Position numbers and translations under genes: made by a program. Of a stretch of 64,000 nt of DNA, positions 2,641-38,593 are shown in pieces. This stretch comes from Hydractinia symbiolongicarpus (taxonomy: Eukaryota > Cnidaria > Hydrozoa > Anthoathecata > Hydractiniidae): assembly GCF_029227915.1 (NCBI RefSeq), contig NC_079876.1, positions 12,898,001 through 12,962,000 of the forward strand, in the 5' to 3' direction. Every line of letters starts with the position of its first letter. Position 1 is the first letter of the stretch. The notes beneath the pieces were generated by a model. That model searched no databases and was not told where the DNA came from. It saw only the letters and a list, made by a program, of their open reading frames with translations.

Positions 2641-3689
2641 TGACTTATAGAAAAAGAGCCTATATGAAATAATCTTTTAGAATAAATAAAGGTGAAGAAT
2701 TCTTTATTTTATTGGACGACCATCAAAATCCTTCAAATAATGTGTACTAACTATACTATGAAAATCATCCTTATATGCCAACAGTATGCATTTTAGTAAT
2801 TGCTATTCTAGTGTTTGAAATCACTTTACACACGCCTAATGCCGTCACACATGGTTATTTTTCTAGTTTTGTAATAAATTTAAATTTTTCAAGTATTACT
2901 GCGGATAGGGCGTCAATTCTTAGTAGATTTATTCACTGGGTAGAAAGATTTATATTTTGTATAAAAAAATAATTTTAATCACTTCATTGGGATTGAAAAT
3001 GACGTCATATTTGTAAGGAAGTTTATTACTGTATCGATAAAGCAAAAAATCTGATTTCCTGAAATATCCATTTGAAGTCATTAAACTTTGCACAAGGTTA
3101 GAATTTATAAATGTTTGAGGTAAGGAAAACAATACTGAGATTAGAAATGACAATATTTTAGTGAAACGATACTCCCTTTAAATCTGTTCTGTATTTTAGC
3201 TTTGTGACCCATATATCTTCTTGGCAACACCTTAGTAACCACCTAGTGATGAACATACATGTAATGAATACTAAATTTAACTAATACAAAATCGTACAAC
3301 ACTCATACATGCAAGTCAGCACATTATAAAATTTACAAAAAATTATACCTGTCCCAAAATTTTGATACCCCGCGAAAAGTATGAAGATTTTTCAAATAGA
3401 ATTTTTTTTTATTACAAGTCCCAATGAAGGTTAGAAAAAGTCACAAAATTTCAGCACATAATCACATGCCAACAAAACTTATGCCCAGTCCAAGAGGCCG
3501 TCAGCATATTGTACCCCCCCCCCCTTCCCCTTTCCTCCTCTCCTTTAGGTGTACCAACGCAATATGTCTGCAACAATGTAATTACGCTAAACAGTGTAAA
3601 AACGAAGTAATCTGTGACAAAATGTGAACGCATTTCAGCACCTATTTTATAACATATATTGTTCTTAGATAAGCAAAGAGAAAAACAAA

Positions 3690-4110
3690 ATGGCCACCAA
3701 GGCAAATTGGGATATTATGATATCCTACCATCATGCGTCTGGCAAGGAGTACATGAAAAGGATTAAAGAGTCATTATTAAAACAGGATTACTCTGTTTGG
3801 ACTGATGAAGATCGAGTGTATGGAGATTTAGGTGCACGGATGGCAGAAGGCGTTGCAGGATCAAAATTGATCATTCTTTTACTTTCAAAGGGATATGAAG
3901 AATCTAAAACCTGTCAGAAAGAATACAACTTGGCCTGTGCGCAACACAAGAAAATTATCTGTGTAATAGTTGAGAAAGGTTATAAACCTCCAGCAGACCA
4001 TGTGCTCAGTTTGATCCTGGGCAATAACATGTACTACCAATTATACAGAGGTGATGAAACAACTTTTCAAAATCTATTAAAAGACATCTCACAACAGCTA
4101 TTAGGAGAAG
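3690..4110 (+). other. Exon 1: TIR domain
   Basis: The exon encodes about 140 aa that begin with WDIMISYHHASGKEY (strand bA) and continue with YSVWTDEDRVYGDLGARM (box 2 / BB-loop region), SKLIILLLSKGY (strand bC) and TCQKEYNLA. Glu78 in TCQKEY sits where plant and SARM1-type TIR domains have their catalytic glutamate (WCLDEL in plants). The exon ends GAAG before GTATGT, leaving one base that the 28-nt exon 2 completes. Confidence 0.85.
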
Positions 4111-7100
4111 GTATGTGCATTTCAGTTGTAGATTTAAAAACTGCAAAACTGTTTTATCGTTGTGTCATCTTGTGTATAGTTTGAAATACTAAAGGTCGTC
4201 GAAACTTTTAGTTGGCAAAACTTTAGAATTTTTTTGTTTACATTTCCCCGTCTTTGTTAGATTAAAGCAAAAAGAAACTACTACATTAGACCAATGTTTG
4301 TTTATTTTAAAAAAAGTTTATTTTTGAAGCAGGGTTTAAATAAATCTGTAGCTGGCCAATCCATAACAACCACAAATTGTGGATATTGTTAATGAGCCCT
4401 CAGTTAACACATGTAAATTCAGTCTATTTTGTTACACTGAATTTGTTGAAATGCTAGATCTTTGCGTTTCTATTGAGTAACAGTGCAAATAATGATTTAG
4501 TTTAGATAGTTTAAATAGGGTTGTTTTAACTTTTTTGCTTTTATTTATTTTCTTATTTTTGATAGCCCCAGTAAAGACTGAGCCCATTTTGAAGTAAGTG
4601 TCACACATTTTACAAAAATTCTACAATGAAAAAAAATATTCTGTTTGTCATGTTTTGTTTTGTTTTGTTTTGTTTTTGTTTTTTTATCTCTACCTATTAA
4701 ACCAGGAAAAATTTCCTAAAAGTATATAAATTTAACAATAACGTCTTTCTTTCGTATTTTTGAAATTTAATTACTAAATCTATTCTTGTTAAAAGTTCTT
4801 GTTACAAGTATGTAGTAAGCAACATCAGTTCTTTATACATCAGTAAAAGATATTTTAAATGGTAAAACATCTTCTTTAAAAATATAATAATAGTAAGAAA
4901 AATGATTTTAGAAAACTGACATTATACTGCCTTATAAATCGGGATAAAAAGACATTAGGCGACCTTATGTAAAGCAGATTATACATTCTCACCTTGTCGC
5001 CGATTGTTTATATCAATGAAATTTTAATTCAGCGGATTTGTTGATGATTCAGTAAAAGATATTTTATATGCTAAAACACGTCCTATAAAAATGTAATAAT
5101 AGTAATAATAATGATTTTACAAGGCTTACTTTATTCTACGCTTATAAAGTCAGTAAAAAAAGATATTAGTTAATTAAAACTAATCATAAACAACTCTTTA
5201 ATTTGCATCTACTTTAAACTACTCGTTGTCTATTATATCATTTATCAGAATTAAAGAGTTTTTTTACCGTTATTACAACAGTAATATAGACTCATGATTA
5301 ATATCATAAAGTGCTAGTTGGTGGTCCGTGGAAAAATCCCCGGGTTCGGTCCTTTTAATACCTAACTGCGTGTGTGTCAATACATGCGGTACCGTTTTGT
5401 CTGACAGACAGACAGACGTATACGGGTATTATAATATAGATACAGAAATATAAAAGTTCGTTGACAAATATTTTAAAATATTAGCTTCCAACTATATTTT
5501 TAATTTTAGTTTTTGGATGTATAAAGACAAAGAAGAAAATATCATTGTTAAGTTTCATAATAAAAACTTAAAAACCGTTCAGAGAATTACTATACAACAG
5601 GACGGTAGTGATACCAAGGTAGAACTGAAAGAATCATCGTACTTTTATGAAGAAATAGGAGACAATAAGCTTGTATTAACAATATATAAGGCAGCTACCC
5701 GGTACATCCTAAAACTTGTCATATCGTTGCTGGACATTGATGGAAATAAAGAGATTTTTGAAGTAGACAGTAAATAGTAACTAATTAGGTTTTTAATTTT
5801 TTTAAAAAAAATTGTCTTAAAAGTTTTATACGTCACTTTCATTACTATTTGTAGATGTCAACATTGCCTGCGCTCACAAGTATTACAACAAAGAAAGTAA
5901 CTTTTCTCTCCATACACATAATAGCGACAAAGTTGCAGCACATATTAAGTCAATTATCAGCACCCCTGTTCTTGAAACTAACATTCAGCTGTTCTGTTGT
6001 GGAGAAGTATATGAAAAAAGTAGAAACGAATACTTAAGATTTTCAAGAAATTATGTTAATGAAAACTGCACATCCAACAATGCCTTTCTAAAAGAAGCTG
6101 TCCAATTTCCACCACCAATGGTAAATGAAGAGATTTCCAGCTTTGCATTTCGACTAAAGTCAATTCTCAGTGAAATTGGGCACGTGTTTGTGATCTTCAC
6201 ACATTACAATGCCACGGAAAATCTGAGACTTCTAAATTTAAATACTTATTGTGATCGTGTTCAAGATTATAAACACAGACTTCTGCTGCTCCATCCATCT
6301 CAAAATACCTTCGTCAACATAAGATACACTAAAACTACTAGTGGGTCAATCATTGAGGAAGAATTTCAAAATGGTGAGGCAGATATCAAACATTTGTTTT
6401 CAATCAATCAACAATTTATCTTGAATAGTACCTCCAGATTTATAAATGTTGTTGCTGCACCAAATTTCCAAACGTTAGAGAACATCGACGTTTGTGCAAA
6501 CTGTCAATTGTTAGATCAGTCTATTTTCTCGGATGACACAAAGGTTCAAAATTTCCTTCTATCTCTTGGATTAACAAGAAAAGACCTTGATCACAAAAGC
6601 AAAGAGCAGTACATGAACATATTGGGTCAAGCAATGTGTTTCATGGCTTGTAGAGAAACTATGAACACTGTTCCAACAATCAAAGATGACATCCATGGGA
6701 AAATATGCAGTGTTCTATTGTCATCTGAACAGTCAAATATTTTGTTTGACGAATCTAAAAAGAAAATTATTGTTGGACCATTAGGAAGTGGTAAATCGGT
6801 TCTTGCTTTATCTCATCTAAAACAACTTTACCAATGTTGTGAAGGAAAATGCACAATATATTATGTCATGTGGAGTGACAAAACAATACTGCTGAAAGGT
6901 ATTGAAAAATTCGTCTCAAAATTTCAATGCAACAAAAATACCACTGTAAAAGTAAAGAATGCAATTGAATTAGCGAAAGAGCTCAATCTCTTTAAACTTC
7001 CAACCTTATCCCAATTATTACTGTTGTTGTTAAAGAAACACGGTGGTATGTCATTTCATTTTATAAGTGACGAAGTTGATGGAGCGATGTTTGACAAACA

Positions 7101-10100
7101 AGAAGCTTTATCGCTGAAGCAGATTTTGGAGAGGGAAGAGGCTTTAAAGAATTCCATGATTGTGTTGTTTCTGCAATCTTTGGAAAAGCACAGGATATTG
7201 GTTTCATCTGGAGAATTAAAAAGCCATGATAAATACAAGTACGAAGAAGCTGGTATGCGTGTGTTTTACCTCAATAAATCAATGCGAACAACGAAGAATA
7301 ATTTTAACTTCTTGGTACAATTTGAGAAGAAAATTTCCGGGATTGAATCAGTTATCAAACATCCTGTTCAGGACAAAAATCATGAAATATCATCAGCAAA
7401 ATCTGGAACGACCAGCTCTACCATTCAACAAAATTCAAAGCAGCGTAAAGTCTTAGAAATAAAGAATTCACAAGTAGAATCAGCCGAAGAAAGTAAAAAG
7501 ATTTTTGAAGAACCAGTGGATATAGAGAAAATTGCAGCTGCCTCACATTATCCAGATGTTTCTGAAGATATCAAAACCCTAACCAAAGTGAAATGCAACT
7601 CTGCGCAAGAAGTTGGACATAACATTGAAGGTACAAAGCCAATACTGATACATCTTAATTATGAAAATGAAACAGAAGAACAAAGTATTGTCATGTTAGC
7701 TCTCTCGTTGGAATACTATCTAGATCTTGTTAATATTAAACGTTTATTTTTTCATAACACTGTGGAACAAATGATCACGTTTCGAAAAGTTTTGGATTTA
7801 ATCAGAAGGGATTATTTTGTTTATAACAAACAAACTGAATGGAGTGTCATCGACCGCTGCAATAAAGTGTGTGATCTTCCTGCAGACGTGGGTTATAATA
7901 TAATAACCGACGTACACGGTAGTAGAGGAACAGACTTTTGTGAAACCGTATGTGCTATTGACGTAAATGACACTATGTTGCGACACAAGACGTTAGAAGG
8001 CATGTCCAGAGTAACTGAACGCCTGATAATTGTTTGCGCGTGTAACATACAGTCTGCTACTACAAATTCATCAACTGGACATATCATTAAAGATCTGTTA
8101 CCGGAGTACCTAAATGAGGTTTCTGTTGAATGCGCAAAAAATTCAAATAAAGACTTACATTACATTGAAATGCAAGTCAGTGACAAAAAATCGATAGGTT
8201 TTGTGAATACAAATTCGCGCAGATACAAAAATCTGATGGAACGGATAAAGAAAATTAAATATGAAAAGGATGAATCAGATGTGCATGATTTCGCGCGAGT
8301 TATACGTAAAAAGTAAATACATCTTTTTATTTATTTGTAGTATAAGCAAATTACCAGCAGGTATAATTTTTAATCAGAACTGCAAAATGTCTTCTAAACT
8401 TGTTTGTAGTACACTTTTATGCCTGCATCTAATTTCTAGTTTCCAGCCTCCAACAATCAACGTGAGCTGCAACTTTTCAAACGACCGTTCCTGTACAATT
8501 AATTGGAATGAGGAAGGATATCGTTACGTAATTAATATGGAGAACGACAGATCACAATGGCAGAACGTAGAGCATGTCATCACGTTTGGTGGATGTGTTA
8601 TCAACAATTTAGTTATTGGAAATAAATACAAGTTTCGTGTTTTGGCTAGTAACGACTTTGGTCAAGCTCAAAGTGTTGTATCGTATCGACATGTGTAAGT
8701 TTTTTTTGTGGTTTTTACTATTGATTTTCTAAAGGTATGGCTATTTTTGTTTCATTAGGTACTCCATTTTTTATTTCTAGAAATAATCTTCCATCAAGTC
8801 GTGCAGATATGTCTGTCACTTTTGAAGGTAAGTTCAATTGCTTGGAAACAGGGCTACAGATAAAATTTGGTAAATTTCAAAAAAAAAATTGTATGCTCTG
8901 TATGCTAATATTAAAAAGGTTTTGATGATGCTAAGTTGAACCAATCATTGAAACCAAAATAATACGTTATATCACGTGATTTGAATATTTGCGTACCAAA
9001 TCTATAAATGTTAATAGTTATTATATTTATTAAAAAAAGTTAAGGCTGGTTGAGGTTGTCCATCTTCTGTTGCAATCCGTTTTAAGCATTTGATGACAGC
9101 AGTGATTGTTTCAGACTTTCGGCTTTATCTTTCGATATCCAGTAAAGATAAAAGTTAGTTTTTGATAACATCAGCATGACCTTTTTGAACAAATTATAGG
9201 GCATTTGTTCTGTACGTTAGCATGTTAGATTGAGTAAGTAACATCTCTTAAACCTTTTCGTATCAGCAACAGTATAACTCTCGCATATTTTTAACCAACC
9301 CTGTTTATTGATTTTAAAAAATAATCACGAAACAGAAATGATATATTTTTGACCTACATCGTAGTCATAGTGCTTGTGAAACATTTTAATTTTTATTAAT
9401 CACCGGGAAACGTGTCCAAAGTAAAATATGAAATTCCTTTATGGTGAAATGTTAACTTTGCTACTATTATTTTCCTTGAGTTGATAGGATATTTTGTATA
9501 TCCAGTGCAGCTTTCTCCTGGTAAACAGAAGCACAAAAAGATTTACATGTTATCAAACTGTAATTGTATTGAAAAATCTTTTTTTTTAATATAATCAAAT
9601 CTCTTTTCTTTGAAATGCTTTGAAAATATAAAATTAAAATAATCAAGCATTACGAAATCAAAGATGCACTAGAGATCCATATTTTATTCTCAAGGTCATT
9701 TTTTTTGGTGAATAAGAATTTTCAATTTTCTCGACAATTATATGTAGTTTAATCGAACTTTAGAAAATTGAACTAAAACGTTACTTCTGAATCAATTACT
9801 ATTGCTGACCTCTACTATAAAGTTGCCTCCCTATACTTTAACAAAAGCAAACGGAAAATAGTCAAGGTATTTTTTAATCCTGTTTGGTTGATAGGCTCCT
9901 TTTTCTCTTCCACATATAGTGTGGCAAATTAAAAAACAGTAAAAAAATGTTTTAATCCAGCATAAAAGAAATTAATAATTTTTCTAATTGCATTTTCAAA
10001 GAGGTAGGAATGAAAATTATTTTTTTGCGTGGTATTAATTAAAATTATTGGGGTAGTAATTGGGATGGCGGCTGGGGTAGTTAAATCGTATAATCGAAGC

Positions 10101-13100
10101 GTATATTTTGTAAATATACATTGTAGATTCAATTTAACTGTAATACTATTTGAATTGGGTGTAAAGTTGTTAAACAAAAGTTTTACCTGTACATTAAGTT
10201 TACAACGCGTAGCTCCGCAATATTTATATGTTGCAGGATAATGCAGATCTTATGCCTTCGCAAAATTTGGCCACCGTGTCAAATTGATCACTATTGAAAA
10301 AAGATGGGCAATGTTGAACAGTTCGGCTCCTATAGGATAGTTAATAAACTTGTCTTCAGGAACTGTTAGGCTTTTTATAGTTGAACGGCCTAGTATAATA
10401 CAAGCCATTATCCATAACCATAAAGGTTTGAGTATACGGGTTGTGAAGTAGTGAAATTCTTATGAAGCTATAGCCTCGTTTCCATACTATTTCAATATTG
10501 TAAAGAGAATTTCATCCGGAGAAAATTTGTCAGCAGGACCGGGGAAAAGCCTCCTTTCCAAGTTATTTATATTTAACCGTAATGGCTGGCCTCGATTCCA
10601 TGTTATTTGGTCATTGACACGAGAACATCATAACCTAAAGATTTGCTGTAAGAGCCTTCTTTTCAAGTTATTAGCAACCTTGCGAAACAAGAACGGGAGC
10701 ATTTGCGACGGAGAAAATACTATTATTTTTTCAAGCATGTACAGATCAGGACAATCCCCCAAAACAAGGTTGACATTTTTCCTTCGATTTGAAAAGAACC
10801 ATTTTGAGCTTGTGGATAGAGCGTCAAGTATTTAAGAAAGTAAAAATGTGATATGGAAATATTATTGATACAGAAACAGCGTATATAAGTTTTTCCCTAA
10901 ATTGTGTCACTTTTTTTGCATTTTTTTGATAGTTGCCATGGTTTTATTTCATATTGTAACTTTCGTTTAACTTTTCTTAAGCAATTATTGGCGCGTTTTG
11001 CGTACAACGGGATTTCATGAAAAGTTATTGTCAACATTGTTGCAGATAGTGCCGTACTTTGTAAAAGTCTCTACTTACACTTGAAAATTATCGCTAATAG
11101 AAACAAGTCAGTGCAAATCTTATGGGAAGGTTTCCATCTGCAAAACTTATCAGTGGCAAAGGAAAGCACATAATGATCTGGTCTGTAGAATAAAACTACC
11201 ACCAAAAACACCACCCTAAACACTACCTCGACTTCATTCTCAGGACCCCTATTTGCTTTCTTATATTGGGACGGCGCAAATAGGAAGGGGTCTTGAGGAC
11301 GAGGTTGGGATACCCCATGTTTTCAAATAACCGATCGCGTGTCAGAGAAACAATCTTTGAAATATTCGTGCAGACGAAATCGAATATATTGAGTACAATT
11401 TGTTCTATTTTTATCACTATATCATACTCAACCAAAACGAATATGTTTCATTCAAGAAATAATGTTGATAAAATGTGTGAGGTTAGAGAAAATTTAATTT
11501 TGATAAAAGCAGTAGCTGGTTCTTATTTACATTTTTTTTCATAAGACACCCGTTTACAAGTAACGGATTATTTACTAAGAGCTGTGTAATTTTAATTTTT
11601 TTTTAGAATTTAAACTGAAAAAACTAACAAACTCTTTTTGCGTGCTTGAGATTATGCTCTGTCTTGATCCTGCAATTTTCTCCATACAATCTGAAAAAAA
11701 TCGAATATATTGAAGTACAGTCATTCTATTTTTATCACTATATCATACTCAACCAAAACGAATATGTTTCATTCAAAAACGAGTTCTTTTAACAACAGGA
11801 TGTGAATAAGGTGAGAAAGGTTTTTCACTAATCGTTAAAAAACTCTCGAAAGTTTCATTTTAAAAATATTTTGTGTAGATTTCTATCGTACAAATTTTTT
11901 AAATTTTTCTGAATGGTAGCTAAATTACTTTCAACGGTGTGAGAAAAAATATCGCTCGTATTTTTTGTTATTATACAATAAATTATTTTTCGACATAAAA
12001 TTTTGTACCGAAGATTTAAATTATCTTATGTCACTAAACTTGTTCTTTTTATGAAACCGTTTTGTGATAAAGAATGTATTAGTTAAACAAAAATGCTGAT
12101 GTCATCATGATTTAGACAATTGATTTTGTGTTTCTAATTTGGTCTCCATTTGCAAATTCATACATGATGACGTCATTAAAATAGTGTTATTACAATTTTA
12201 ATATTTCATCTGTTTATCAATGTTTGTATTAATTTCTATAATCGTTTATTTTCTTCAATAATTTTTTTGTCGCTACGAACAAATTATCTCAAAATATTTT
12301 TTATTTAAGAATTTACACTTGCGCAAATTAATCCGATGGCATCAAAATAATATACTCCAATTTCGTTTGTTCTTATATTTATTTTTGTGTTTTTATAATT
12401 ATTTGTGAATGTTTAATATATTAACATTCTTTTTTCACTATTTTTATGTTTATAAAATTTCCAATCTATTACAATAAGAAGAAACATCTTAAAATCGATG
12501 TCATAAATTTTTCGTTATCATATTTCATTAATTTATAAATTTATAATTTTTGTTCATTTATTATTGTATTTTTAGATATCGAGGAAATTATTGAATCTAA
12601 CGATATCGAGAAACTGAAAAAATTACTATCCATTCATCCAAACATCGTTCACATGAGAGATGAAGATGAACGCACACCATTGATGTGGACAGTACTGTAC
12701 ACCAACAATACATCAATGGTGGAAATACTCATCTCATACGGGAGTGATGTTTGGACGGAAGATAATATATTTAAACAAAACAGTTATCATTACGCTGTAA
12801 TTCATGATCGTCACATAATATTAGATATGTTATGTCGACATGATGTAACAAACATCAACCGTGGAGATGTTGACAACATCACACCATTATATTATGCTGC
12901 AGCGCTTGGTCACATCTCATGTGTTGATGTTTTGTTGCGTCATGAAAATGTTGATGTGACAATCAAAGATGGAGCTGGAAGAACAGCTTATGATCGTGCT
13001 GGAAGATGGAAGAATGAACAAAAGCGGGAAATAATAAGACGAAAAATAAAAGAATACGAAGTGAGTTATTAAGTTGATTTAATAAATTAGAAAAAAGAAT

Positions 13101-13481
13101 AAATTTGTATTTTATTTTAAGTTTGTCATATTAAGACATAAAAATGATTATAATATTTAAATGATAAAAGATAGGAAAAAATAGGAAGGAATGATTGGTT
13201 TGTAAGCAGAGTAAAATATTTTAACAACATTTTTAAAATAATTTAAAATACAATTAGATGTGATAATTTTGGTTTAAGTAGATGAAAAAGATAAAACAAA
13301 ATGTTGAACAAAAACATGTAGTTATAAAAAAATAATTTGAATACTAAGTTAAATAAAACTTCGTACCCAGACCTCTATCAACTAGATGAAACGAGAATAA
13401 ACAATTAAACAGCTAGTTATATGTTACGAGTTTATATTTAAATATTTTTAAATATTTTTTCAGCAAAGAAGGAGGAGATAA
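3690..13481 (+). CDS. TIR / SF1 helicase-like NTPase / FN3 / ankyrin multidomain protein
   Basis: The model has eight exons: 3690-4110, 4566-4593, 5510-5769, 5855-8312, 8440-8694, 8781-8827, 12576-13060 and 13464-13481. Every junction has GT-AG and the phases agree, giving about 1,323 aa. Domains in order: TIR (aa ~5-140), a beta-rich linker (~150-236), an SF1 helicase-like NTPase (~300-1030; Walker A GPLGSGKS ~544, DEVD ~642), one fibronectin III domain (~1060-1140) and three to four ankyrin repeats (~1157-1310). I see no signal peptide or membrane span, so it is probably cytosolic. TIR domains signal by self-assembly or cleave NAD; ankyrin and FN3 domains bind partners. A role as an immune sensor or effector is inferred. 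The start at 3690 has a good context (ACAAAATGGCC). The last splice is uncertain: reading through 13061 would end the protein at 13072 instead. Whether one transcript spans the 3.7-kb intron (8828-12575) is supported only by phase. The tail resembles FANK1. Confidence 0.8.
4640..4685. repeat. (TTTTG)n microsatellite
   Basis: Short run of TTTTG units in intron 2 of the TIR gene, next to the 28-nt exon 2. Confidence 0.8.
4842..5160. repeat. Direct duplication in intron 2
   Basis: About 100 bp at 4842-4945 (starting CAGTAAAAGATATTTTA) recurs at 5049-5155 with the same start and shared AATAATAGTAA and AATGATTTTA words. It is noncoding and lies about 350 bases upstream of exon 3. Confidence 0.55.
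5314..5440 (-). mobile_element. Short non-autonomous Helitron-like element (copy H1)
   Basis: Read on the minus strand, it starts TCTATATTATAATACCCGTA (degraded form of the TCTCT end), contains a CAGA-rich stretch and ends with an imperfect hairpin and then CTAG. It matches copies at 30732-30841 and 57553-58767. The hairpin is mutated (CCGTGGAAAAATCCCCGG), and the 3' flank is C rather than T. Confidence 0.5.
5855..8312 (+). other. Exon 4: SF1 helicase-like NTPase region
   Basis: One 2,458-nt exon, opened by TTTGTAG and closed by AA|GTAAAT. Visible motifs: KKIIVGPLGSGKSVLALSHL (Walker A, motif I), FHFISDEVDG (Walker B, motif II), VFYLNKSMRTT (motif IV-like), ITDVHGSRGTDF (motif V-like) and EGMSRVTERLIIVC (motif VI-like, with an arginine that could be the finger). 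This order matches UvrD/Rep-like superfamily 1 proteins. A charged, low-order segment (about 7370-7620) separates the two RecA-like halves. The N-terminal ~300 codons of the exon are unassigned. Whether it unwinds nucleic acid or only switches by NTP hydrolysis cannot be seen. Confidence 0.7.
8440..8694 (+). other. Exon 5: fibronectin type III domain
   Basis: The 255-nt exon is phase-symmetric (85 codons) and encodes a single FN3-like fold: FQPPTINVSCNFSND at the start, CTINWNEEGYRYVINM (conserved Trp and Tyr), then NNLVIGNKYKFRVLASNDFG, matching the L-x-P-x-Y-x-F-R-V-x-A-x-N core of FN3. A 47-nt linker exon (8781-8827) follows and joins in phase to the ankyrin exon at 12576. Confidence 0.75.
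8828..12575. other. Intron 6 of the TIR gene (3.7 kb)
   Basis: No convincing extra exon is seen between the FN3 linker exon and the ankyrin exon, and the phases of the two flanking exons join directly. The intron contains repeat family R (about 10448-11345). It also holds a short duplication: the AATCGAATATATTGA word with the following TATCACTATATCATACTCAA occurs near 11379-11455 and again near 11698-11775. Confidence 0.55.
10448..11345. repeat. Dispersed repeat family R, uninterrupted copy
   Basis: The sequence starting AGCTATAGCCTCGTTTCCAT (about 10479), and the block GGTTTCCATCTGCAAAACTT with its downstream GATCTGGTCTGTAGAATAAA (about 11127-11193), recur in the same order and strand at 14782-14990 and 16437-16560. 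There the family is split by two younger insertions. I see no coding capacity, and the exact ends are uncertain. Confidence 0.6.
12576..13060 (+). other. Exon 7: ankyrin repeats
   Basis: The exon encodes about 160 aa with ankyrin signatures: DERTPLMWTVLYTNNTSMVE, then LISYGSDVWTED, then NSYHYAVIHDRHIILDML, then DNITPLYYAAALGHISCVDV and LLRHENVDVTIKDGAGRTAY. The protein ends in a basic tail (RRKIKEYE, then QRRRR if the GTGAGT donor at 13061 is used), much as the FANK1 family ends. The preceding acceptor TTTTTAG follows the long intron. Confidence 0.85.
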
Positions 13482-14781
13482 ATGTCCCAGGAAAAAATAA
13501 CAATCCGGTCACCAGGTGAGATAATTTTTAAAATGTTTAAAAATTATGCGGTATTGTAATTTTACCAATCTATTTAAGTTTAAGTAACTTCGAAAATTTT
13601 CACACTTTTTTATGATATTAGAAACTTTTATTTTTTAGATGACGAACAAGTTTGCAGTTAAATTTTTTATTCTATTTATATTAGTCATTTATATATATTA
13701 ATATGTTATACATATATATATTTATTTTAAATATATCTTTTTGTATATATGTCTATAATAAATTATTGCAAATATAAATCCATGTTGCTTTTAGTTTTAT
13801 ATTATTTATTATTTAAAATATATATTTATACTTTATTTATATTAGAACAAATTTATAGGAACAATGAAGCTGGAAGTGGCTGAAAAATAAGAACAAAGGG
13901 AAAGGCTGAAGTTTTAATTTTGTGTTCTTAGCGCAAAAAATGGCAAATTACAGAATAAAATGATTTTAAGCAGTTTATCAGATTGTGTCTGACAGATTTA
14001 TCTGATTTGACAAAAATCTTTTTTGTCGTCACAATCTGAAAAGTTACAACGTTTTAACTTTTTAGATTTTGTCTGAAGAGAATTAACCAATGAAGTTACA
14101 GATTGTTTTATGAAATATTATTGATTTAAAAATTCGTATGATTTCGAAAGAAAGAAACTTCACAAACAGAAATTTTATTGAACTTTTAAAAGGGGAAAAA
14201 GGTCTATGGAACATAAAAACTCCGCCGTACAAAAACAAGGGGTGAGAAGGCGAAGGTAATCGTCCGAATTTGTGGCAAATTAGAAATGAAACAAAATCTT
14301 CTCTTTCCCTGTTTTCGTTGTTTTCGTTGTTAATGTAAAAGACGCCGCTGTCGGATGAACATGTAATTAAAAATCAGCGTGAAGACAAATTTCATCGTTC
14401 TTATAACGCATTTTTTAGCAAAAACATTAGAATTAAATTTAATTTTTACCAATCGTACAATCCCTTTCTTTCACACTGTCTATAGTAAAGGTGATCAGAA
14501 TTTTTATTAGCAGAATTTTCAGCTATTCTCTGACCTTCCTTGTGAATCCACTCATTTATATATAGTATTGTGTTATATCAAGTATATTTATATACCTATT
14601 TATGTATGAGTTCGGGTGAGTTTTATAAAATATATTTGATTTGATTTTGATTTACTGTGGAACAATTTTTGTTCGATTTATTTTCGTATCATGGAAAGAT
14701 ACATGTTCTAAGTCACGTGGTTTTGCTGCATCAAAATTGTCTCGTTCCCAACTAAAAAGGTTTGACTGCTATATTTTACGT
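13482..14781. other. Downstream noncoding region
   Basis: This AT-rich stretch holds the putative 3' UTR of the TIR gene, with TATATA runs near 13690-13850. A spliced UTR is possible (donor CACCAG|GTGAGA at about 13515, acceptor TTTTTTAG at about 13639). I see no gene. A diverged short inverted segment with CAGATT/GTCTGA words lies near 13980-14105. Confidence 0.5.
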
Positions 14782-21300: not shown

Positions 21301-24300
21301 TGTTATTTCGTGTGAATTGACTAACTAAAATCATAGTCATAAGAAAAAGAGTTAGTCTGGTAATTAAGGGCCGTCCTATTGTTCACAAGCAGATATGTTT
21401 CCTAAATCAAGGTGGCCGATTCAAGACTGCACAGAATTATCAATAAAGGCTGCTATTGGGGAGTATTACTTTGTTGAATATGATTTTGATGCAATCTTGG
21501 CTGTTATTGATGAAGATTTATTAGAGAAAAATAGTGATTTAACTAAAGAATTATCCGAAATTGTTGAAGAAATAGTTGACGACCCTTCTGAAAGTAGTTT
21601 TTCCTGTGATATATGCTTCAAAACATGCAAAACAAAACGGGGAATCACAAGACACCGAAAATGCGAAACATCGTCAGCCACAAAACCAGTTAAATGACGA
21701 CAGCCTCACTACTGCTGAAACCAAGCTCCAACCGTTATACTTCAAAAAGTACACCCAATTAAGTGCAAGTAAACTTTCTAAAGAATGTGAGAAGACCAGA
21801 AATGAATTGTGTCAATTATGTTATTACAAACGACGATACAAACTTTTCCTATAGTTTTATCAGAGATGTGATTGGTAGTTTTAAAGGTGATGCTGAAAAG
21901 TCTTACCCGGTCTTCTACAAATCTGTGTTTGAAAATATTGTTTTCAGAAATTCATCAAATCGAAGCTCTATTCTCCTTGGTTTTGAAGTGGTTAATAACG
22001 TACTTGCTCGTCTCACTAATTTAACTGTAAAAGAAAACATTGTAGAATTTTCTTTCCATGTGAATTTTTCACCCAAAAAAAGAAACATAATTTAATATTA
22101 TTGAAGATATTATTTCGGTTTGTCTGTTCAGTATTCATATTACTGTGGAAAGTTTATCATTTCTTAAACAAGATAGTTTAGTAGGCGACGTTTCGGGAGA
22201 TCCTTCTCCCATCAACGGGCAAAGTAAAATGATGTTGCGCATGTATTTATATAATTGCAGAGGATCAAAATTCATAAAAAAATTAACCAATCAGAAATGA
22301 GCTGATAATTACAGTTAATTACAGTAACTAACATTTTCGGACCTAGATGTAGGTAACTACTTTTTCTGTAGGGCTGGTAACCAAATCTCAGGAAGTTGAT
22401 ACGAGATGCTGTTTATGTGTTTGTTACGTTCTACACTGTTGATACTTTCTTTAATCTTCCTGGCAGTTGTTCTGGATTCTCTGTCAATGATTTTCTTCTC
22501 ATCTCAATTAAACTGATGACTTCTGCTCCAGCTGTGGTCCGCAATTTCGTTTTTCTTCACATCTCCGTTTCTCACTGCGCGCATATGTTCTTGTACTCGT
22601 TGCTTAAACTTTCTTTTTGTTTCGCCTATATACACTGCATCACAATCTTTAGACGGGATTTCGTAAACAACATTGCTTTGTCCTTCCAGGTTTATTTTGT
22701 CTTTTGGTTTAGACAAAGTGCTTCTTAGGGTGTCTTTGAGGTAAGAATGCATTTGATCTTGTGTTGCCTTAAAACTCGACGAAGGATCTCGCTGGTACCT
22801 GGTACGAAGGGTAGGAATGTTGATGCGATAAATTCCTCTGATGTTTCCTTGTTGTCTCCGTTGCATCTTCTCTTCATTTTATTTTCTACTGGTATGTAAG
22901 TGGTTATGTATTTAGTACCCTATATCGTCACATTAGGAGATCAAAAAAAAAATCAAGAAGTATGCTTGGAGTTCAAAGTTTGGACATCTTATTAGCTGGA
23001 AAATCGTGTCTTGTGGAAGACGATAAAAATTCCGATTTAGTAAATATCAAGGAGGGTTATGGTCAGTAACCGATGATCATGATTTTTTGTTGTGCAGAAC
23101 TTGAAGTTCGTGCTGCGACAATTGATAGCAATAAAATTGTTTCAGACCTGCTTGAGAACCCTGTTGTGGTTTGTAATTACAACAAAAAAACATCATACTC
23201 AACTGAAAAAGTCACAAAAGAATTAGCAATGCACTTACTTGAGCATTTCATCATGCTTTATGTTCGTGTTCGTGTTTTTTCATTTGTGAAAGATAAATGT
23301 GAGCTCCACAAAATTGCATCAAAACAGAAAAAAGCTCGATCTCTACGCACTGAAATCAAGAAATTTTCAAGCAATCTTTCAGATAGACATTGACACTAAG
23401 AGTCCAGAACAGTGACTATAAACCTGTTGAAACTGCTATTGTTATAGCAACAAATTTTAAAACAATATTATTTTGGCACATGGTATAATAAATAATTATA
23501 GACGTCTACAAAAAGGTCCAGGTAGTGTATATAGGTTTTAAGGTATTTTAAAATATTTTTTATTAATGTTTGTGTTAAGCAGATAAAAGCCTTAAAATGA
23601 TATTACCTGTCATCATTTGAAATACAGTGCTTGTTCTTGCTTATTAAGCCAATTTAATGTTTTTTATAAATGTGTGGCTATAAAAATAACCGTTTTCAGT
23701 TTCTTTTTTCTTCCAAGTGTGTTTAATTGCTCTTACGGCATGGCACTGTTTCAGTATCAATTTCGTGACAGTTACCAGCTATGGGTCGGAACATTTTTGT
23801 GTTTTAATTTTGTTGTCATTATGACCAAAATCACGGGTTATCTTTTCTATGACCAATTGCACGTTGACGACCAAAGTAGTTTTCAAGGGGATCTTGACAA
23901 AATCTTTCTGTCAGTACATATGGAACTCCATTATTAATTAAATACTGGATTAATTCAACAGTAGAATGGACAGTGATTTTAATTCCTTGGTAGGTTTTCC
24001 ATGAGATAAACATATTTGCTCTAACATTATCTGTAAAATTACCAGGCCTATCAGCAATTACCAGGCCATGTTTTGAATTATCCAAGAAATGTTTCGGTCA
24101 ACCATAAGAATCTTTCATCATCAACAGATGTGTACGGTTTAAGAAATGCTTTACGTTTAATTGCTGCTTCTTTGGTATTCTTGACGTTGAGACAGTCAAA
24201 AAATTGGTCGAACATATTACAATATTTGGCAGTTGCTTTAGCTTTTGGTGGTCTATACAATTGAAGAGGGTTAAAGACAGATTCGCTTAACACTTGTGCT

Positions 24301-27300
24301 GCCAGACGTACATTCATGACTAAATATGGTGTGAGTTTGATGTGGTCATTTGTTATTTCAGGAACAAGATGTATTCCACAGTCTAAGTCATCAAGGAATA
24401 ACTTTGAAATATGGTTACAGGTGGTATAACATCCATCATTTCACATATTTCTGGTACATCTTCCTGCAAGAGAATTACTCAGGCAATTCCGGGCTGTTTT
24501 AATTAAGTGTGGTGGATCTGAGATGAAGTAGATGTACCGTTGTTCATCCGCCATAACATTGTGTGGTGTGGTATGTTACGTCAACTTCTGCATTAATGTC
24601 AGCTACACGGGTCATGTTTAGGCACATGGTACATTCATCGGTCCGTCACTTCTGACACCAACAACTTTTATGTCACAGTTATCCTCCAGTATGCCAACCG
24701 CTTTCTAAAAAAGAAGAAACAATTGAATTGATGTGATATTGGTAGTAGCAAAATTTGCAAATGAAAATTTAAAGGATTTACAGTGCTTCTCACGAGAAAA
24801 ACATGATATGCAATTTCATCAATCTTTTCCAACGCAACATAATTTAGATCAATATCACGAAGGTCAACAAAACCGATAAGATCACCATTATGCTTATCCC
24901 ACACAAGACTTTCTTGAATTTTCATTTCATCCATTAATAATATTGCATATTTCTCATGTGGTTGTAATTTGAAGACCATATTACACAATTCCTGGATAAC
25001 GTCTTTGTTAAAGCCCTGTTTTGGACAAATATAGTTCTTATAGTCCCTTAAACGACGTCTACTAGGAAGAACCAAGAAACCACTGTCTTTTTTATCATCA
25101 ACACAAATATCATCATAAAAGGCAGGGGATTTTGCAGCTAAACCCAAGCAGTAACGAATGATCATAGGATGATAGCGAACATCAGTTTTCGATGATGATA
25201 AATATTTCTGCTGGTCTTCCCAAAAACATTTCATGAATGGTGATATCTTGCGACTAGTTGTTGACATAATTTTTATGAAATCTTCACCAAGACGTTTTTT
25301 GACTGGAACTGCACAAGTGGAAATTTCATCTTGCATTTTATTTAACTCTTCATTAATTCTTTATTTTCCAACCGATGACTTTGAAGGGTTTTTATGATTC
25401 GTTCTGGAAAAGTCATGGAAATTGGTGCTTTAAGTTTGGCAGGTGAAATTAAATTGTCCCTTTTCCTTTTCAAACTTAGGCTTTCTTTTGATTCCGACCT
25501 AACACATTTCAATCATTTTTCAGAAGAAGGTGGAATAAGAACTATGCAATTTGGAGATCGATACCATTTGCTTTGATGAAGAGGTGCACTAGTGCTATCC
25601 TTGATGTTAAATACTTTAGGAACACAGTGCTCAAGACAGCTACGAGCAAAGTGGTCAAACCTGGGCATAATTTTAAATCCATAATTAATCTTGTTAAATA
25701 TGTAATTGTATTAAGTTTCAGTGAATGAGAATGTCATGTTTAGCAGGAACGGACGGTAAAAAAACACGAACAGTGAAAACAAGATTATTACCAACATATA
25801 TCTCAAACTTTGGAACTGAGTGGATAGCATCATGACAGGCAAGAAAAGCACAATCACCTGTAGACTAATTTCAACAACTGAGTTTTAGAAATAAAATCTG
25901 TAAATGACTTGTACCGATCAGTAATGACATTTTCCAATGGTTCAATTTTTTTCTGCAAAATAGATTGTGCTGATTGACGAGGCTTAGAAGATGTGGAGGA
26001 TGAAGGAAAACTTTTGATAGGAAGGTTTATTGTAGGGATAGTAGAGTTCTGCTAGAGTGATTACGATTCATTTGATTTTCGCTGAGTTGCTTTTCACAAA
26101 TATATATTTTCTTTCTTTGAGTTCTATCCCTTAGAGCATGATCAACTTCCCTATCTTTTATCACAACAGCAACTAACTTTTCTCTCCACGACTTGTCAAA
26201 TTGATTCTCACCAGCAGGAACTTTAAAAATAGATAGACCTATATATTTAGCTCTTTGTGAAACTGTGCAACCGTATATAGAGCAATTTTTGCCAGTCATG
26301 TTAAAGATAATTCTGTTTAAATGTTTGTTAATCCTATGCTTACAGTAACTAACCAGCGTGCAGTCAAAGCACTGGGTACTAGGTATATTCTGCTAACAAA
26401 AACATAAACAATAGAGCCACGCGATTCACCAGACTCTTTTTCTTATGACTATGCTAAGATATAAAATTTCAGGCCAGCCTTTCCCGCGGGTAACAATAGT
26501 ATCGGTCAATTATTACTTGCGGAGAAGGTAAGCCTAAAATTGTCTATGCAAATTTGAATCCTTACAAATTTACCTCCATAAAAATGCAAGCAAAAAGTTT
26601 TTTTCACTGTATGTAAAATCAAGTTTGTCAAACTTGTCTGAAAGTGTTTTGTTATACAATAGCTAACATACCGGTTAATGCCAACTTGATTCCGGTCATA
26701 CTTTCTTGTACTTCCGGATATGACATACCTACATAACACAAAATAACATTGATATAAACATTTATTCTGCGATGAAATCAGTTCTTCCAGCATTAAAAAC
26801 GTTGCATAGAAAAACTATTCTTAATAATACCTGGAGTGTCGAGCAATAAAATTCTGGGAGATTGAGACATCTAGAATTAACAAAAGTATTAAGTATTACC
26901 ATAAAAGTTAGTTTAATGCACGTTAAGATAGTGGTCTCATAGATTCAAAAAAAAAAAAACAAGTACAAATACCACTAAAAACCTGCAGTACATCAAACAA
27001 ACCATATATCAAACAGGAAAAACAACTTACTTTTATAGATTGCATGACAGATCGTGTTACACCAGGCTTTTTACCAACGGGAGTAGCTTTTCCTCCTGCA
27101 TGTGGAAAAAAGCATATTACATAGTAAAGAGTGGTTAAAATTGTTTCTGCAAACCCTTTTACGCTTTCCAAGATGCAAATTATAAGGTTATCTAACCTCG
27201 CTTTGTTAAGCTTGTAAATAAAAAAGAGAACATTTGTTTTCAACAGTAACATAAACAGTAACATCTGAACACCATTTACTCTGAACAAAATATACTCTAA

Positions 27301-34524: not shown

Positions 34525-36309
34525 TCAACACACTATCGTTGGTAACCTTGGTTTCACTATCTTGAATCTTTCCTTAACCAAACTTGGATTGTTTATCAAG
34601 GTGTATGCTAAAAACCATCGATTAAAAGCAACTGAGTTAACAATGTGTTGTCTGCGAACAATACATCTTGAATCAGTGAACAAACAATAACCGTCTTCTA
34701 AAATAGTTGAATCGCTCTTGCAAGATTCATTTAATAAAATTTGACAAAAATATCTCATAATTGGGTTTTTATATGAAGCTTGAACATGCAAGAAACCAAT
34801 GTATGCTAAAAAACCACTATCAAATTTTTGGAAAAACTTGGAAATCATTGCGGTATGGTCAATTCGTCCAAGAAACAAAATGCTGACCAAAAATGCTTTG
34901 AAAGATCTGGATAAGCATGATACAGCACCAATAACGATATTGAAGAAAAAGAAAAAGTACATGGCAATATGGTAAATTTTCAAATTTCTTACATAGATCG
35001 CAATTGTTGATAAGGGCTTCACAGTGAAAACTTTGTATGCCAGCAGTAATTGCAGGAGATAAATTATCAAAGGCATAAGCAAGTATGATGCAAGGTACCT
35101 TATAAGATTTTCCGCAACTTCTTGAACAGATGGAAAATCAACTGCCAAAACAATAAATCCATATATCAGGAAGAACAAAATGAAAAATACAATGAAAAAA
35201 ACAATCATCCCCCAGGTCATGTATGCAACCAAATAACCAGGAAAGAATAAATTGTAATAAACCATTAATCGATAGTTAACAAGTTTGGAAATATCAGTTT
35301 TTTTGCCAGCATACAGAGTTAACACATTTGCACGGTGTGAATAGATAAAGTGAAGCAGTAGCAGACCATACACTATTCCAGTTACAGCAAAGGAAACATA
35401 AAATGAAATGTAAAAACCTTCCATTGTTTTCTTAAGTGTTGGGTATATGTTTTCGGTTGAATTGATATTAGACTCCAGTGAAGTAAGAAGAATCCCATTT
35501 GCTTTACTGAAACCATATATGGATAAAACAGCCAGATAATAATACACAATCACGATAACCACGATAGATGATAAAAACACAGTAGAAAACTTAAACCAAG
35601 GCTTGCTGTATCTGCTGTACAATCTTTTGAGGAAGTTGCTGCTATAAAAATCTACAACGTCTCTTGAAAGGACATTAAGCGCTTTCTTCACATAAGTAAT
35701 TTGATAGTCGTTCACTAGTTTATGCTCCAGTAACGGTCTGCAGTACACTCCTTGCTTCAAATTTATGTAACAATTTTTAACAAATATTCCAAAAAGAGCC
35801 AACATGCTTAAAATGCTGGGTAAGTTTTCCATAACATTTACCAAAATAAGTTCCGTAACATTAAAGGAGCAGGAGTAATAACAAGACTGTAACAACACAA
35901 AAATTAATTTCCACAATGTAAACAATGCACCAAAAACATACGCCATGACAACATATGAAGAATTAATACAAGCAAATAACGGAAAGTTTATCAGTCCAAT
36001 CTCTATAATATAAATAGTACCACAAAAAGCCTGCCCAATAACCCCAGGCAGAAACACAAGAACAGTGGAACTGTTCATTAAAAGATGCACAATATCTCCA
36101 ATCATTGATGCAAAAGCAAGTATTACCATGAAGCGATTCTTATCATTGTCCAGTAGAAACAGAAATGGAGCAATAACTTTAACTTGTCTAGTTTTATAAT
36201 ATTCGTAAGCATAAAGTACAAAGATTATCAGCAATGAAGGTATAATAGTATAATGCTGCAGCATAGCTATACTTAACACTGGTTGACATGTTGCATTTGT
36301 TGAGCTCAT
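34525..36309 (-). CDS. STRA6: STRA6-like multi-pass membrane receptor
   Basis: A single intronless ORF of 594 aa, close to the length of vertebrate STRA6 (about 670). Nine or so hydrophobic segments can be seen, starting with HYTIIPSLLIIFVLYAYEYY. The C-terminal half is diagnostic: RNLKIYHIAMYFFFFFNI, then LSRSFKAFLVSILFLGRIDH, then FLAYIGFLHVQASYKNPIM, then FNRWFLAYTLINNPSLVKE, which correspond to the STRA6 stretches with YTLLHNPTL. STRA6 binds the retinol-binding protein and moves retinol across the plasma membrane. In invertebrates, without that carrier, the ligand is unknown. A 3' splice site (TTTATTTAG) lies 17 bases upstream of the ATG, so a separate 5' UTR exon or trans-spliced leader is likely. 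Confidence 0.85.
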   Translation of the reverse strand: MSSTNATCQPVLSIAMLQHYTIIPSLLIIFVLYAYEYYKTRQVKVIAPFLFLLDNDKNRFMVILAFASMIGDIVHLLMNSSTVLVFLPGVIGQAFCGTIYIIEIGLINFPLFACINSSYVVMAYVFGALFTLWKLIFVLLQSCYYSCSFNVTELILVNVMENLPSILSMLALFGIFVKNCYINLKQGVYCRPLLEHKLVNDYQITYVKKALNVLSRDVVDFYSSNFLKRLYSRYSKPWFKFSTVFLSSIVVIVIVYYYLAVLSIYGFSKANGILLTSLESNINSTENIYPTLKKTMEGFYISFYVSFAVTGIVYGLLLLHFIYSHRANVLTLYAGKKTDISKLVNYRLMVYYNLFFPGYLVAYMTWGMIVFFIVFFILFFLIYGFIVLAVDFPSVQEVAENLIRYLASYLLMPLIIYLLQLLLAYKVFTVKPLSTIAIYVRNLKIYHIAMYFFFFFNIVIGAVSCLSRSFKAFLVSILFLGRIDHTAMISKFFQKFDSGFLAYIGFLHVQASYKNPIMRYFCQILLNESCKSDSTILEDGYCLFTDSRCIVRRQHIVNSVAFNRWFLAYTLINNPSLVKERFKIVKPRLPTIVC

Positions 36310-36326
36310 CTTGTTTAGTTGCTTTT

Positions 36327-38593
36327 CTAAATAAAAGAAAAAATAAACTTTTAATAAAAGCTATTTCACTTTCCTGATTTCTTTTTAAATTTATGGAACG
36401 GATTAGCTAAAAATATACAATTTCACATTTAATAGGCACTTTAGTCAGGTGACTAGAATGTCTCAAATTTGATAGCAGGATTTAGGCTGCTCTTATAATT
36501 TATATAAAATTGATAAATTCTCATATAAAACAAAAAGAAATATATCTTCATTTGGGCAGATATCAATGCTGAAATTTTAATAATCTGGATGATAATATAT
36601 AATACTAGTCGATAAAGAAAATCCACTCAGACAGGATAACAAGTGTCATGTGAATTTTAATGACGTCACCATCTACAAAAGAAATTAATTTAGAAACTTG
36701 TTTTCACGTTGCCTCCATTGTGTGGAGCTTAAAGAGATAAAAAGGTTTAAACATTTTGCTGAGGTCAGCAACGTCCCCACAGAGTACAATTTTTTTTTTA
36801 TAAATTTGTATATCAGTTATCATATAGATCTTGAAACGCTGATAAAAAATGTATAGGATGTGCTTTTGACAAAGGGTTGCAGAGAAAAATATAGATTTTT
36901 CCACAGGCCTTATCACAAGGCAAACGGAAAGACAATGGGAAAGATCTGTCATATAAATTTTATTGACATCAGCAAATATTTTAGTATATTGCACATTGCC
37001 CTTTACCAAAAAAAATAAATCTAAAAATGTCAAAAAGTAGGTGTGCAAGAAGTAATTCCTAAGTTAACACAGATGTTAAAAAAATCTTATTACAAAATGT
37101 AAAGAAAAACAGCTTGAAATTCTAGTTGATCACAAAGCAACAGTAACCAAGTTACAATAACTGACAGTCACAACATCTTATGTGATTATGTTAAAAACCT
37201 TCAATATTTTAATCTGAAGTGACAAAAAGAAAGGCCTGCAAGAGTAAGCACATATCTATGAAAATAAGTTTTTTACACATTTTAAACAAAATGCTTATAC
37301 AACAATATCAAAAAGCCATAGTTTGGAAAACATCAAATTTAAATCTCGAAAAATCATTTATTCAGTTGCATACAATCTTCTCCCGTAAAAATATACACAA
37401 AATGTAAAAATTAACTGGTTAATTTTTGTCTGATGATCCGTACTGCCCTTTACTAAACATTTTAAACTGAAATGTCAAAGAGGCAGGGAGCAAGGAGTAA
37501 ATTTGGAATAGACAAATATCATTGTTTGTTTTTAAAGAAACAAAAAAAAATCAGTTCATTCAGCATGTTGTATATTGCCATTACCCATAGAAGGTTATGA
37601 AACACATCAAATTATAGAAAAATCAGTCATTTCAGTGCATACAGTCCTTGGCCAACAAAAACAGTTTCAGTGAGAAAATTTAGTAATTTTATTATCATCA
37701 CGAAACAATTATTATATTATATATATATATATACTACAAAATTTTGTAAAATTATCAACAAAAACATGAAACCATGAAATTTTCTTCTAGTAAAAATGAG
37801 ATCACATACTTTTTCCCAACAAAAGTTTACAATTCGAAATATAAACAGACATTAGCTTCACAACAGCTTACAATGAAAGTAATTCTACAAAAATTTGTTC
37901 TCCCAGTATGTTGCATGTGAATGCTTGTACACTTAGGACCATTTGATTTTCAAATTAAATTGAAAATCAAAATTATTCACAAATTTTGATTTTTGATTTT
38001 CAATTTATATAGTTGAAAATCAAATGGGTCTAATGGTACACGCATTCATGTGGTCTATTTCCATAAAAGTTTACACAAAATTTCAAAAAACAGCACTTTG
38101 CAAGCCAAAAATATAAACTGACAACCATCGTCTCATAATTTTTTTTTAAGCTAAAGTCATAAACCCACATAAATTTCCAATCTAATGTCAATAACCCCTG
38201 TAAAAATAACTTGGCATTTTGCACGTAGGCTGACAAAAGTTTATCAGGATGAGGAAACAAAACAATAAAAAATAACTTAACACACACACTTTAAATTCAA
38301 TAAAATTTGTTCCACTTGTCATATTGTGGTCCCCTTGTAAAGTTTACAGGTAATATGAAAAAAAATGATACTCGATGGACATAAACAATGAGTAACACTC
38401 CTAAAAGTTCAAGAAAGATTTTTTAGCTAGCTAGCGTGTTACATCCTAAGAAGAGAAGTTTCACTACTAAGGTACCTATAAATACCTAAAAAAAAGAGGG
38501 AGCCTTGAAGCTAACATTAGCTAGCTAACAAAACATTAGCTAAGACACTCAGTTATAAATACTGGGCTGGGAAGACTTAGCTACGTCTATAGC
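36327..38593. other. Noncoding region upstream of the STRA6-like gene
   Basis: No gene is seen; the open frames here are short and lack motifs. Loosely repeated A-rich blocks (AAATTT, CACAAAATTT, CAGTTT words) fill 36.7-38.3 kb, suggesting an old degenerate tandem or insertion. A long inverted repeat sits at 37915-38053. GCTAGCTAGC-type words cluster at 38420-38560. Confidence 0.4.
37915..38053. repeat. Long inverted repeat (hairpin, arms ~65 bp)
   Basis: The left arm (GCATGTGAATGCTTGTACAC and on through GACCATTTGATTTTCAA) is the inverse of the right arm (TTGAAAATCAAATGGGTC on through GTACACGCATTCATG), with a very short loop near 37981. Pairing is imperfect at several positions. It may be a foldback element. 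No coding capacity. Confidence 0.7.

Follow-up and report, generated by a model that had tools for sequence, protein, structure and literature searches.

Gene structure and domain architecture

We analyzed a window of 64,000 nucleotides from the hydrozoan Hydractinia symbiolongicarpus (contig NC_079876.1, forward-strand positions 12,898,001 to 12,962,000; positions below count from the first letter of the window). It holds a gene for a predicted protein in which a TIR domain is joined to a nucleoside triphosphatase (NTPase) of superfamily 1 (SF1), an FN3-like domain and an ankyrin domain. The whole analysis draws on one assembly, and the copies compared may be alleles. The splice model, rebuilt from the raw sequence, places eight exons within positions 3690-13481. 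Their phases are compatible, all seven introns are GT..AG, and the product is 1,323 amino acids (aa) long with a single terminal stop. The exons are:

3690..4110, + strand: exon 1, TIR domain (Pfam TIR_2) with the putative catalytic Glu78 (codon at 3921)
4566..4593, + strand: exon 2, linker of 28 nt (GT-AG, phase match; identical or similar residues in the related proteins P0001 and P0003)
5510..5769, + strand: exon 3, domain of ~87 aa, beta-rich by eye, also found ahead of the NTPase exon in each of 13 other close copies examined
5855..6711, + strand: exon 4a, predicted Schlafen-linker-like domain
6712..8312, + strand: exon 4b, SF1 (Schlafen/UvrD-like) NTPase, from motif places, conservation and fold matches
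8440..8694, + strand: exon 5, FN3-like domain (fn3, below the cut-off in the window gene)
8781..8827, + strand: exon 6, linker of 47 nt (GT-AG, phase match)
12576..13060, + strand: exon 7, ankyrin domain (Ank_2), hypervariable at residues 2, 3, 5, 13 and 14 of four repeats
13464..13481, + strand: exon 8, C-terminal QRRRR and stop (GT-AG, phase match; the ends of P0001 and P0003 are alike)

In the window protein, Pfam detected TIR_2 at aa 9-130 (E 6.5e-16) and Ank_2 at aa 1192-1288 (E 6.6e-23). The fn3 match at aa 1059-1131 (E 0.0031) lies under the family cut-off; in the relative P0013 it reaches 25.3 bits against a cut-off of 25. The exon 3 domain had no Pfam match above cut-off. A small additional exon at 8341-8360 was considered and rejected, since, as worked out by hand, including it would put the FN3 exon out of phase, whereas joining the flanking exons directly preserves the frame.

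A protein search, which finds only relatives with short words in common, returned 20 relatives. P0001 (1,321 aa, 95% across the part searched), P0003 (1,323 aa, 89%) and P0004 (1,320 aa, 86%) are uncharacterized H. symbiolongicarpus proteins annotated with TIR and ankyrin domains. The junction residues of the window gene recur in P0001 and P0003, both inspected whole by eye, and P0004 can be aligned to the window protein across six domains. In P0013, HEPN, NTPase, FN3 and ankyrin parts lie in one uninterrupted frame on a contig of 4,575 bases, which is probably the nearest approach to RNA evidence for a single-protein architecture. Separate genes in place of one are disfavored because the paralogs keep the same domain order. 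The eight phase-matched exons, the ~1,323-aa product and the TIR, FN3 and ankyrin domains given in a preliminary description of this DNA were all recovered: the introns are GT-AG, there is one stop, and three paralogs have the same order. The TIR, NTPase, FN3 and ankyrin exons are confirmed as one predicted reading frame.

A predicted Schlafen-like motor

Exon 4b carries, in order and conserved, what we take to be the SF1 motifs Q (aa 525-529), I (544-551), II (640-644), IV (710-716), V (921-931) and VI (950-958); motif III (675-683) is a loose match only. The NTPase part of the window protein had no Pfam match above any cut-off. No UvrD Pfam domain was found in the window protein or 14 copies, and no NACHT or NB-ARC match above cut-off in the window protein, the 14 copies or the relative P0027. 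A profile against PDB sequences gave a best E of only 0.42. PADLOC returned no family for the window copy and two weak ones across the 14 copies, and NCBIfam returned none and six weak ones, respectively.

The AlphaFold model of the exon 4 part is of good quality and has a two-lobe SF1 fold that matches human SLFN11 and SLFN14 as well as UvrD. Group III Schlafens were the top Foldseek match of the entire exon 4 and of its first part alone. When the first 285 residues were folded separately, Schlafens were again the best fold matches, and on this predicted fold the part classes as a Schlafen-type linker domain. The Schlafen core nuclease had no Pfam match in the window protein or seven scanned relatives, in most of which a TIR or HEPN domain precedes the motor. 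The SWAVDL-like motif SWxx[DE]L was absent from 14 aligned copies and from 28 proteins. Because both exon 4 and its first 285 residues match Schlafens best, exon 4 is predicted to be a Schlafen-like linker and helicase lacking the Schlafen nuclease. The preliminary assignment of the NTPase to SF1 therefore stands on conserved motifs and a predicted SF1 fold (Schlafen/UvrD-like, not STAND). Its UvrD/Rep-like label stands in part: the SF1 fold does match UvrD, but the motor looks closer to Schlafens than to a generic UvrD and has no UvrD Pfam match.

The linker-like domain also showed weaker fold matches to PD-(D/E)XK enzymes. An active nuclease there was considered and set aside; by our own reading, an invariant N-x-R occupies roughly the place where the motif would put active-site residues. 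Comparison with a viral fold library matched helicases (best E 2.0e-12). A prokaryotic or viral origin was also set aside after profile scans of genome_contigs and viral_contigs, which are of limited sensitivity, gave 61 and 95 pattern matches and no relatives.

The TIR domain

The nearest solved sequences of the TIR domain were RPP1 (E 6.9e-4) and SARM1 (E 1.1e-3), and others were named NAD hydrolase or cyclase. Glu78 pairs with the Glu of the RPP1 SSWCLDE stretch, presumably the catalytic one, and with an Asp in the SARM1 alignments displayed. It is retained in six further TIR copies. The Thoeris family ThsB_TIR scored 19.3 bits in the window protein, under its Pfam cut-off of 21.2.

A gene family with exchanged N-termini

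Searching the animal's own genome with exon 4 gave at least 72 matches, a lower bound, which we merged into at least 55 NTPase loci, 40 of them on contig C2. HEPN_DZIP3 exons had 108 matches in the genome. At 36 of the 55 NTPase loci such an exon lies 1.5-6.8 kb upstream on the same strand, where ~0.09 would be expected under uniform placement. All eight checked proteins annotated with PF18738 contain the RNxxxH motif, as do two for which no match is listed. Of 14 close loci, 7 have a TIR exon within 2.6 kb (the window gene and 6 of the 13 fetched), and the beta exon (exon 3) is present at all 14. In sister genes, the same chassis carries HEPN where the window gene has TIR.

Seven close paralogs (L033, L038-L043) have the beta exon and no TIR exon within 2.6 kb; they are possibly receptors without an effector, or their TIR exon lies farther off. 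Residues 1-200 of P0017 form a third kind of N-terminus on the same chassis, helical by eye; the look of this part is that of a death fold, by eye and not confirmed.

Variability and selection in the ankyrin exon

The ankyrin part of the window protein is 76-83% identical to that of P0001-P0004, while the other domains present are 86-98% identical. Against P0005-P0007 it is 79-81%, not below the other domains. With the HEPN protein P0012 the value is 81%, compared with 34% for the linker and 43% for the helicase.

We compared nonsynonymous (dN) and synonymous (dS) divergence among copies by the Nei-Gojobori method (NG86). Among seven copies the ankyrin exon had a dN of 0.122 and a dS of 0.043, with dN above dS in 21 of 21 pairs. 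In a set of 12 copies, from which L049 (exon cut by the fetched end) and L052 (none within 5.5 kb) were omitted, the values were 0.125 and 0.053, and the bootstrap range of the difference was 0.041 to 0.101. The resulting dN/dS is 2.4-2.8, against 0.3-0.5 for the other domains: 0.29 for TIR (seven copies), 0.34 for the helicase (eight copies), 0.41 for the linker, 0.33 for FN3 (dN 0.0247, dS 0.0752; eight copies) and 0.52 for the beta domain (from 20 of 28 pairs and one further pair without differences). Maximum likelihood gave an omega of 2.58 for the ankyrin exon, 0.49 for TIR and 0.41 for exon 4. There were no premature stops in the copies compared.

Variation within the domain follows the repeat. 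Among 19 ankyrin rows, which include one double (P0001 = L045) and omit proteins with an identical ankyrin stretch, 22 sites had an entropy of at least 1.9. Eighteen of these fall on 20 groove positions, namely residues 2, 3, 5, 13 and 14 of four repeats, and three more are residue 10. We take this numbering to be that of the ankyrin consensus; the repeat registers, in which the third repeat has one inserted residue, were set by eye after site variability had been viewed. Positions 98 and 144 of the ankyrin domain, two of the 20, varied little. Mean entropy was 2.28 at groove positions versus 0.41; none of 20,000 random sets was as high, and slid masks reached at most 1.13. Over 66 pairs, the 20 groove codons had a dN of 0.81 and a dS of 0.13, and the remaining codons 0.064 and 0.044. 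On domain averages, positive selection shows up in the ankyrin exon alone, and there mainly at groove positions. This exon is the most unusual part of the gene, and its hypervariability is absent from the preliminary description.

Nucleotide diversity at codon positions 1, 2 and 3 was 0.52, 0.53 and 0.20 in groove codons and 0.077, 0.056 and 0.040 in the rest. Selection acting on the amino acids, combined with a low silent rate, would give such a pattern; a mutator directed at groove codons is an alternative. An A-biased mutator, like that of a diversity-generating retroelement, may be considered too. Seven of the 20 groove positions share one third codon base in all 12 copies (though one of these seven shows scarcely any variation overall), but codon positions 1-2 of groove codons include all four bases, and a low silent rate together with selection can account for the pattern.

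Probable exchange of the ankyrin exon between genes

The ankyrin exon is almost identical in TIR and HEPN genes whose NTPases have reached saturation at silent sites. We compared the close-paralog group (TIR exon in six of seven; L050 has none within 2.6 kb) with five other loci (upstream HEPN exon in four; L056 has none within 15 kb). Across groups, ankyrin exons were 89.8% identical in nucleotides with a dS of 0.056 (35 pairs), and exon 4 was 53.8% identical with a dS of 2.67 (computable in 27 of 35 pairs). The common tract around the ankyrin exon is 0.68-0.80 kb in the five other-group loci, plus a repeated intron piece upstream. Ankyrin exons of this type also occur in copies on contigs C6, C10 and C11. 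The four-gamete test, applied to 23 two-state scaffold sites, failed for 113 of 253 pairs, as recombination or recurrent change would be expected to produce. We infer that this shared pool would be explained if the ankyrin exon is copied from gene to gene while its groove is under strong diversifying selection.

A near-identical second gene copy lies ~835 kb away (window 3256-14256 against C2:13736304-13747357) and may be an allele (a retained haplotype) or a segmental duplicate. The window gene and this copy, at C2:13738904, are 99.8% identical over 3.3-9.8 kb, and their wider flanks are 94-98% identical. They diverge across one tract:

11000..13500, + strand: divergent tract around the ankyrin exon relative to the copy at C2:13738904, from mismatches per 250-nt bin

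The bins hold 0-5 mismatches over 8.3-11.0 kb, 5-53 over 11.0-13.5 kb, and 0-1 beyond. The top bin (53 mismatches, with gaps) is intronic, the main bin of the ankyrin exon holds 33, and the other bins of the tract hold 5-17. A replaced tract around the ankyrin exon would be the simplest reading. A short element at window 11325-11779 is repeated in the pre-ankyrin intron and matched piecewise before other ankyrin exons; it might promote exchange.

Other features of the window

34531-36360, - strand: frame of 610 aa with an RBP_receptor (retinol-binding-protein receptor) match, E 3e-52
42603-45591, + strand: likely retroelement; of three adjacent frames, one matches reverse transcriptase (E 1.1e-7)
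24671-26392, - strand: transposase-like piece with a TNP-like RNase H domain (E 5.7e-12); an adjoining frame is THAP-like by eye, without a Pfam match
22507-22878, - strand: weak GIY-YIG match (E 1.5e-4, slightly under the cut-off), perhaps derived from a retroelement

Comparison with known systems

The Schlafens SLFN11, SLFN14 and SLFN5 share with the window protein its predicted linker and SF1 helicase-type domain, but the window protein lacks a detected Schlafen core or SWAVDL-like motif and has TIR or HEPN in front and FN3 and ankyrin behind. For SLFN11, an immune role has been described (PMC11615386), and binding of single-stranded DNA (ssDNA) by its helicase part has been linked to its nuclease (PMC9482658, PMC11615386). 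Like UvrD/Rep and GajB of Gabija, the window motor is predicted to have an SF1 fold, but unlike UvrD/Rep it has no UvrD Pfam match.

In layout the protein resembles cnidarian and fungal NLRs and NLR-like STAND receptors, with an exchangeable N-terminal effector, a central NTPase and C-terminal repeats; it differs in that the NTPase is predicted to be SF1, not NACHT or NB-ARC. In cnidarians, HEPN_DZIP3 and TIR occur with NACHT (PMC8260672), and a 2013 listing has a DZIP3-type HEPN fused to ankyrin and NACHT (PMC3710099). In fungal NLRs tied to non-self recognition, the ANK repeats are under positive selection, with the selected positions on the concave binding surface (PMC4986451). There, the repeats are highly similar within a gene and vary in number, whereas the Hydractinia diversity lies between copies of one exon. 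Other fusions include bacterial HEPN with a UvrD helicase or with TIR and an ATPase (PMC3710099), and TRADD-N proteins of cnidarians and brachiopods with HEPN, DDX60, Mov10 or RLR-like parts (PMC8195603). As described in these sources, neither the animal helicase fusions nor the bacterial HEPN-UvrD ones have the order TIR/HEPN, Schlafen-like motor, FN3, ankyrin.

Among solved TIR sequences the nearest are SARM1 and plant TIR NADases, but their sensor and regulatory domains differ, Glu78 matches the Glu of RPP1 and none in SARM1, and NADase activity is putative here. DARPins are the top-scoring solved relatives of the ankyrin domain, and the natural variable sites are mainly the positions that differ among DARPin repeats, which in those compared also differ at residue 6 and the repeat border. 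In DARPins the randomized paratope comprises defined surface positions of the repeats (PMC8683736); the Hydractinia domain, by contrast, is natural, germline-encoded and part of a predicted receptor.

In the literature searched, consulted in part and mostly excluding subscription papers and preprints, no animal protein was found that combines a TIR or HEPN domain with a Schlafen-like SF1 motor. The earlier remark that TIR with SF1 is unfamiliar in animals fits these searches, which cannot prove absence. The effector-NTPase-repeat kind of receptor is known; the motor class and the diversification pattern were not found described there. The nearest system in evolutionary style is that of fungal NLRs, and the nearest in motor is the Schlafens.

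A candidate immune receptor and its alternatives

The exchange of TIR and HEPN, the size of the family and the positive selection on the ankyrin groove strengthen the immune-sensor role suggested earlier, and we infer that the protein is likely a rapidly diversifying immune sensor. We favor, with reasonable though incomplete confidence, an NLR-like intracellular immune receptor, in which the ankyrin groove would pick the ligand, the Schlafen-type SF1 NTPase would act as switch and the TIR domain would cleave NAD+. This reading combines three precedents: the action of enzyme TIRs through clustering (PMC8635717), the SLFN11 link between ssDNA and nuclease, and the concave ankyrin selection of fungi. 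A protein from a pathogen or a non-self cell would be bound in the groove and would shift the NTPase to another state, perhaps while the NTPase holds nucleic acid, as SLFN11 does. Clustering of the TIR domains would then lead to NAD+ hydrolysis, and cell death or signaling would follow. The HEPN sister proteins would cut RNA instead, an output of the kind that Schlafens themselves have.

The predicted Schlafen-like linker-helicase fold would also suit an SLFN11-like nucleic-acid sensor, in which foreign DNA or RNA is recognized by the SF1 and linker parts, with the ankyrin domain merely docking a variable partner or regulator. We consider this unlikely: selection is in the ankyrin exon and not in the NTPase average (omega 2.58 versus 0.41), which suggests that the groove faces a changing partner. 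Less probable still is that the groove reads a polymorphic partner in colony self/non-self recognition rather than in pathogen defense. Hydractinia is a colonial animal with allorecognition, two copies 99.8% identical over 6.5 kb differ in the ankyrin tract, and fungal NLRs tied to non-self recognition have positively selected ANK repeats (PMC4986451). The same kind of ankyrin exon on C6, C10 and C11 argues against it. The output may also be questioned, since MAL and MyD88 scaffold assemblies are described alongside enzyme ones (PMC8635717) and the SARM1 alignments have no Glu opposite Glu78. A non-enzymatic scaffold TIR of the MyD88/TLR kind is nevertheless doubtful, given that the nearest solved relatives are RPP1, SARM1 and other NAD hydrolase or cyclase TIRs and that the Glu aligned with that of RPP1 is kept in the six further copies.

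Two further explanations we regard as very improbable. The preliminary description had named a STAND profile match as evidence that would count against its reading, and a divergent STAND/NACHT NTPase would make this an ordinary TIR-NLR. The only such matches are to NPHP3_N (E 0.09 in the window protein; 5 of 14 copies, best E 0.0066; 3.8e-4 in P0027), but all are under the cut-off and span only the Walker A to B part, and SF1 helicases are matched along most of the model, with motifs IV, V and VI in place. Ankyrin variability could instead reflect assembly error, pseudogenes, misaligned repeats or relaxed constraint; the near-copy 835 kb off has flanks 94-98% identical, and recombination can inflate dN/dS. 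Yet the compared copies have no stops, dN is far over dS and not equal to it, and the variation is focused on the groove positions of four repeats with the scaffold conserved, on several contigs.

More tentatively, the family may be a germline library of natural DARPin-like receptors, in which an ankyrin cassette is copied among dozens of TIR or HEPN Schlafen-like chassis while a dedicated process diversifies the groove and the scaffold is homogenized. That process would perhaps be a mutator directed at the first and second positions of the paratope codons.

If the receptor reading is true, a family of NLR-like receptors would have arisen in an animal around a Schlafen-type motor, and the sensor half of the Schlafens would be separable from its nuclease and could be coupled to NADase or RNase outputs. 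The family would also offer, in a laboratory animal, a natural parallel to engineered ankyrin binders: a receptor repertoire whose paratope can be read. Selection alone versus a targeted mechanism as the source of groove diversity would become directly testable.

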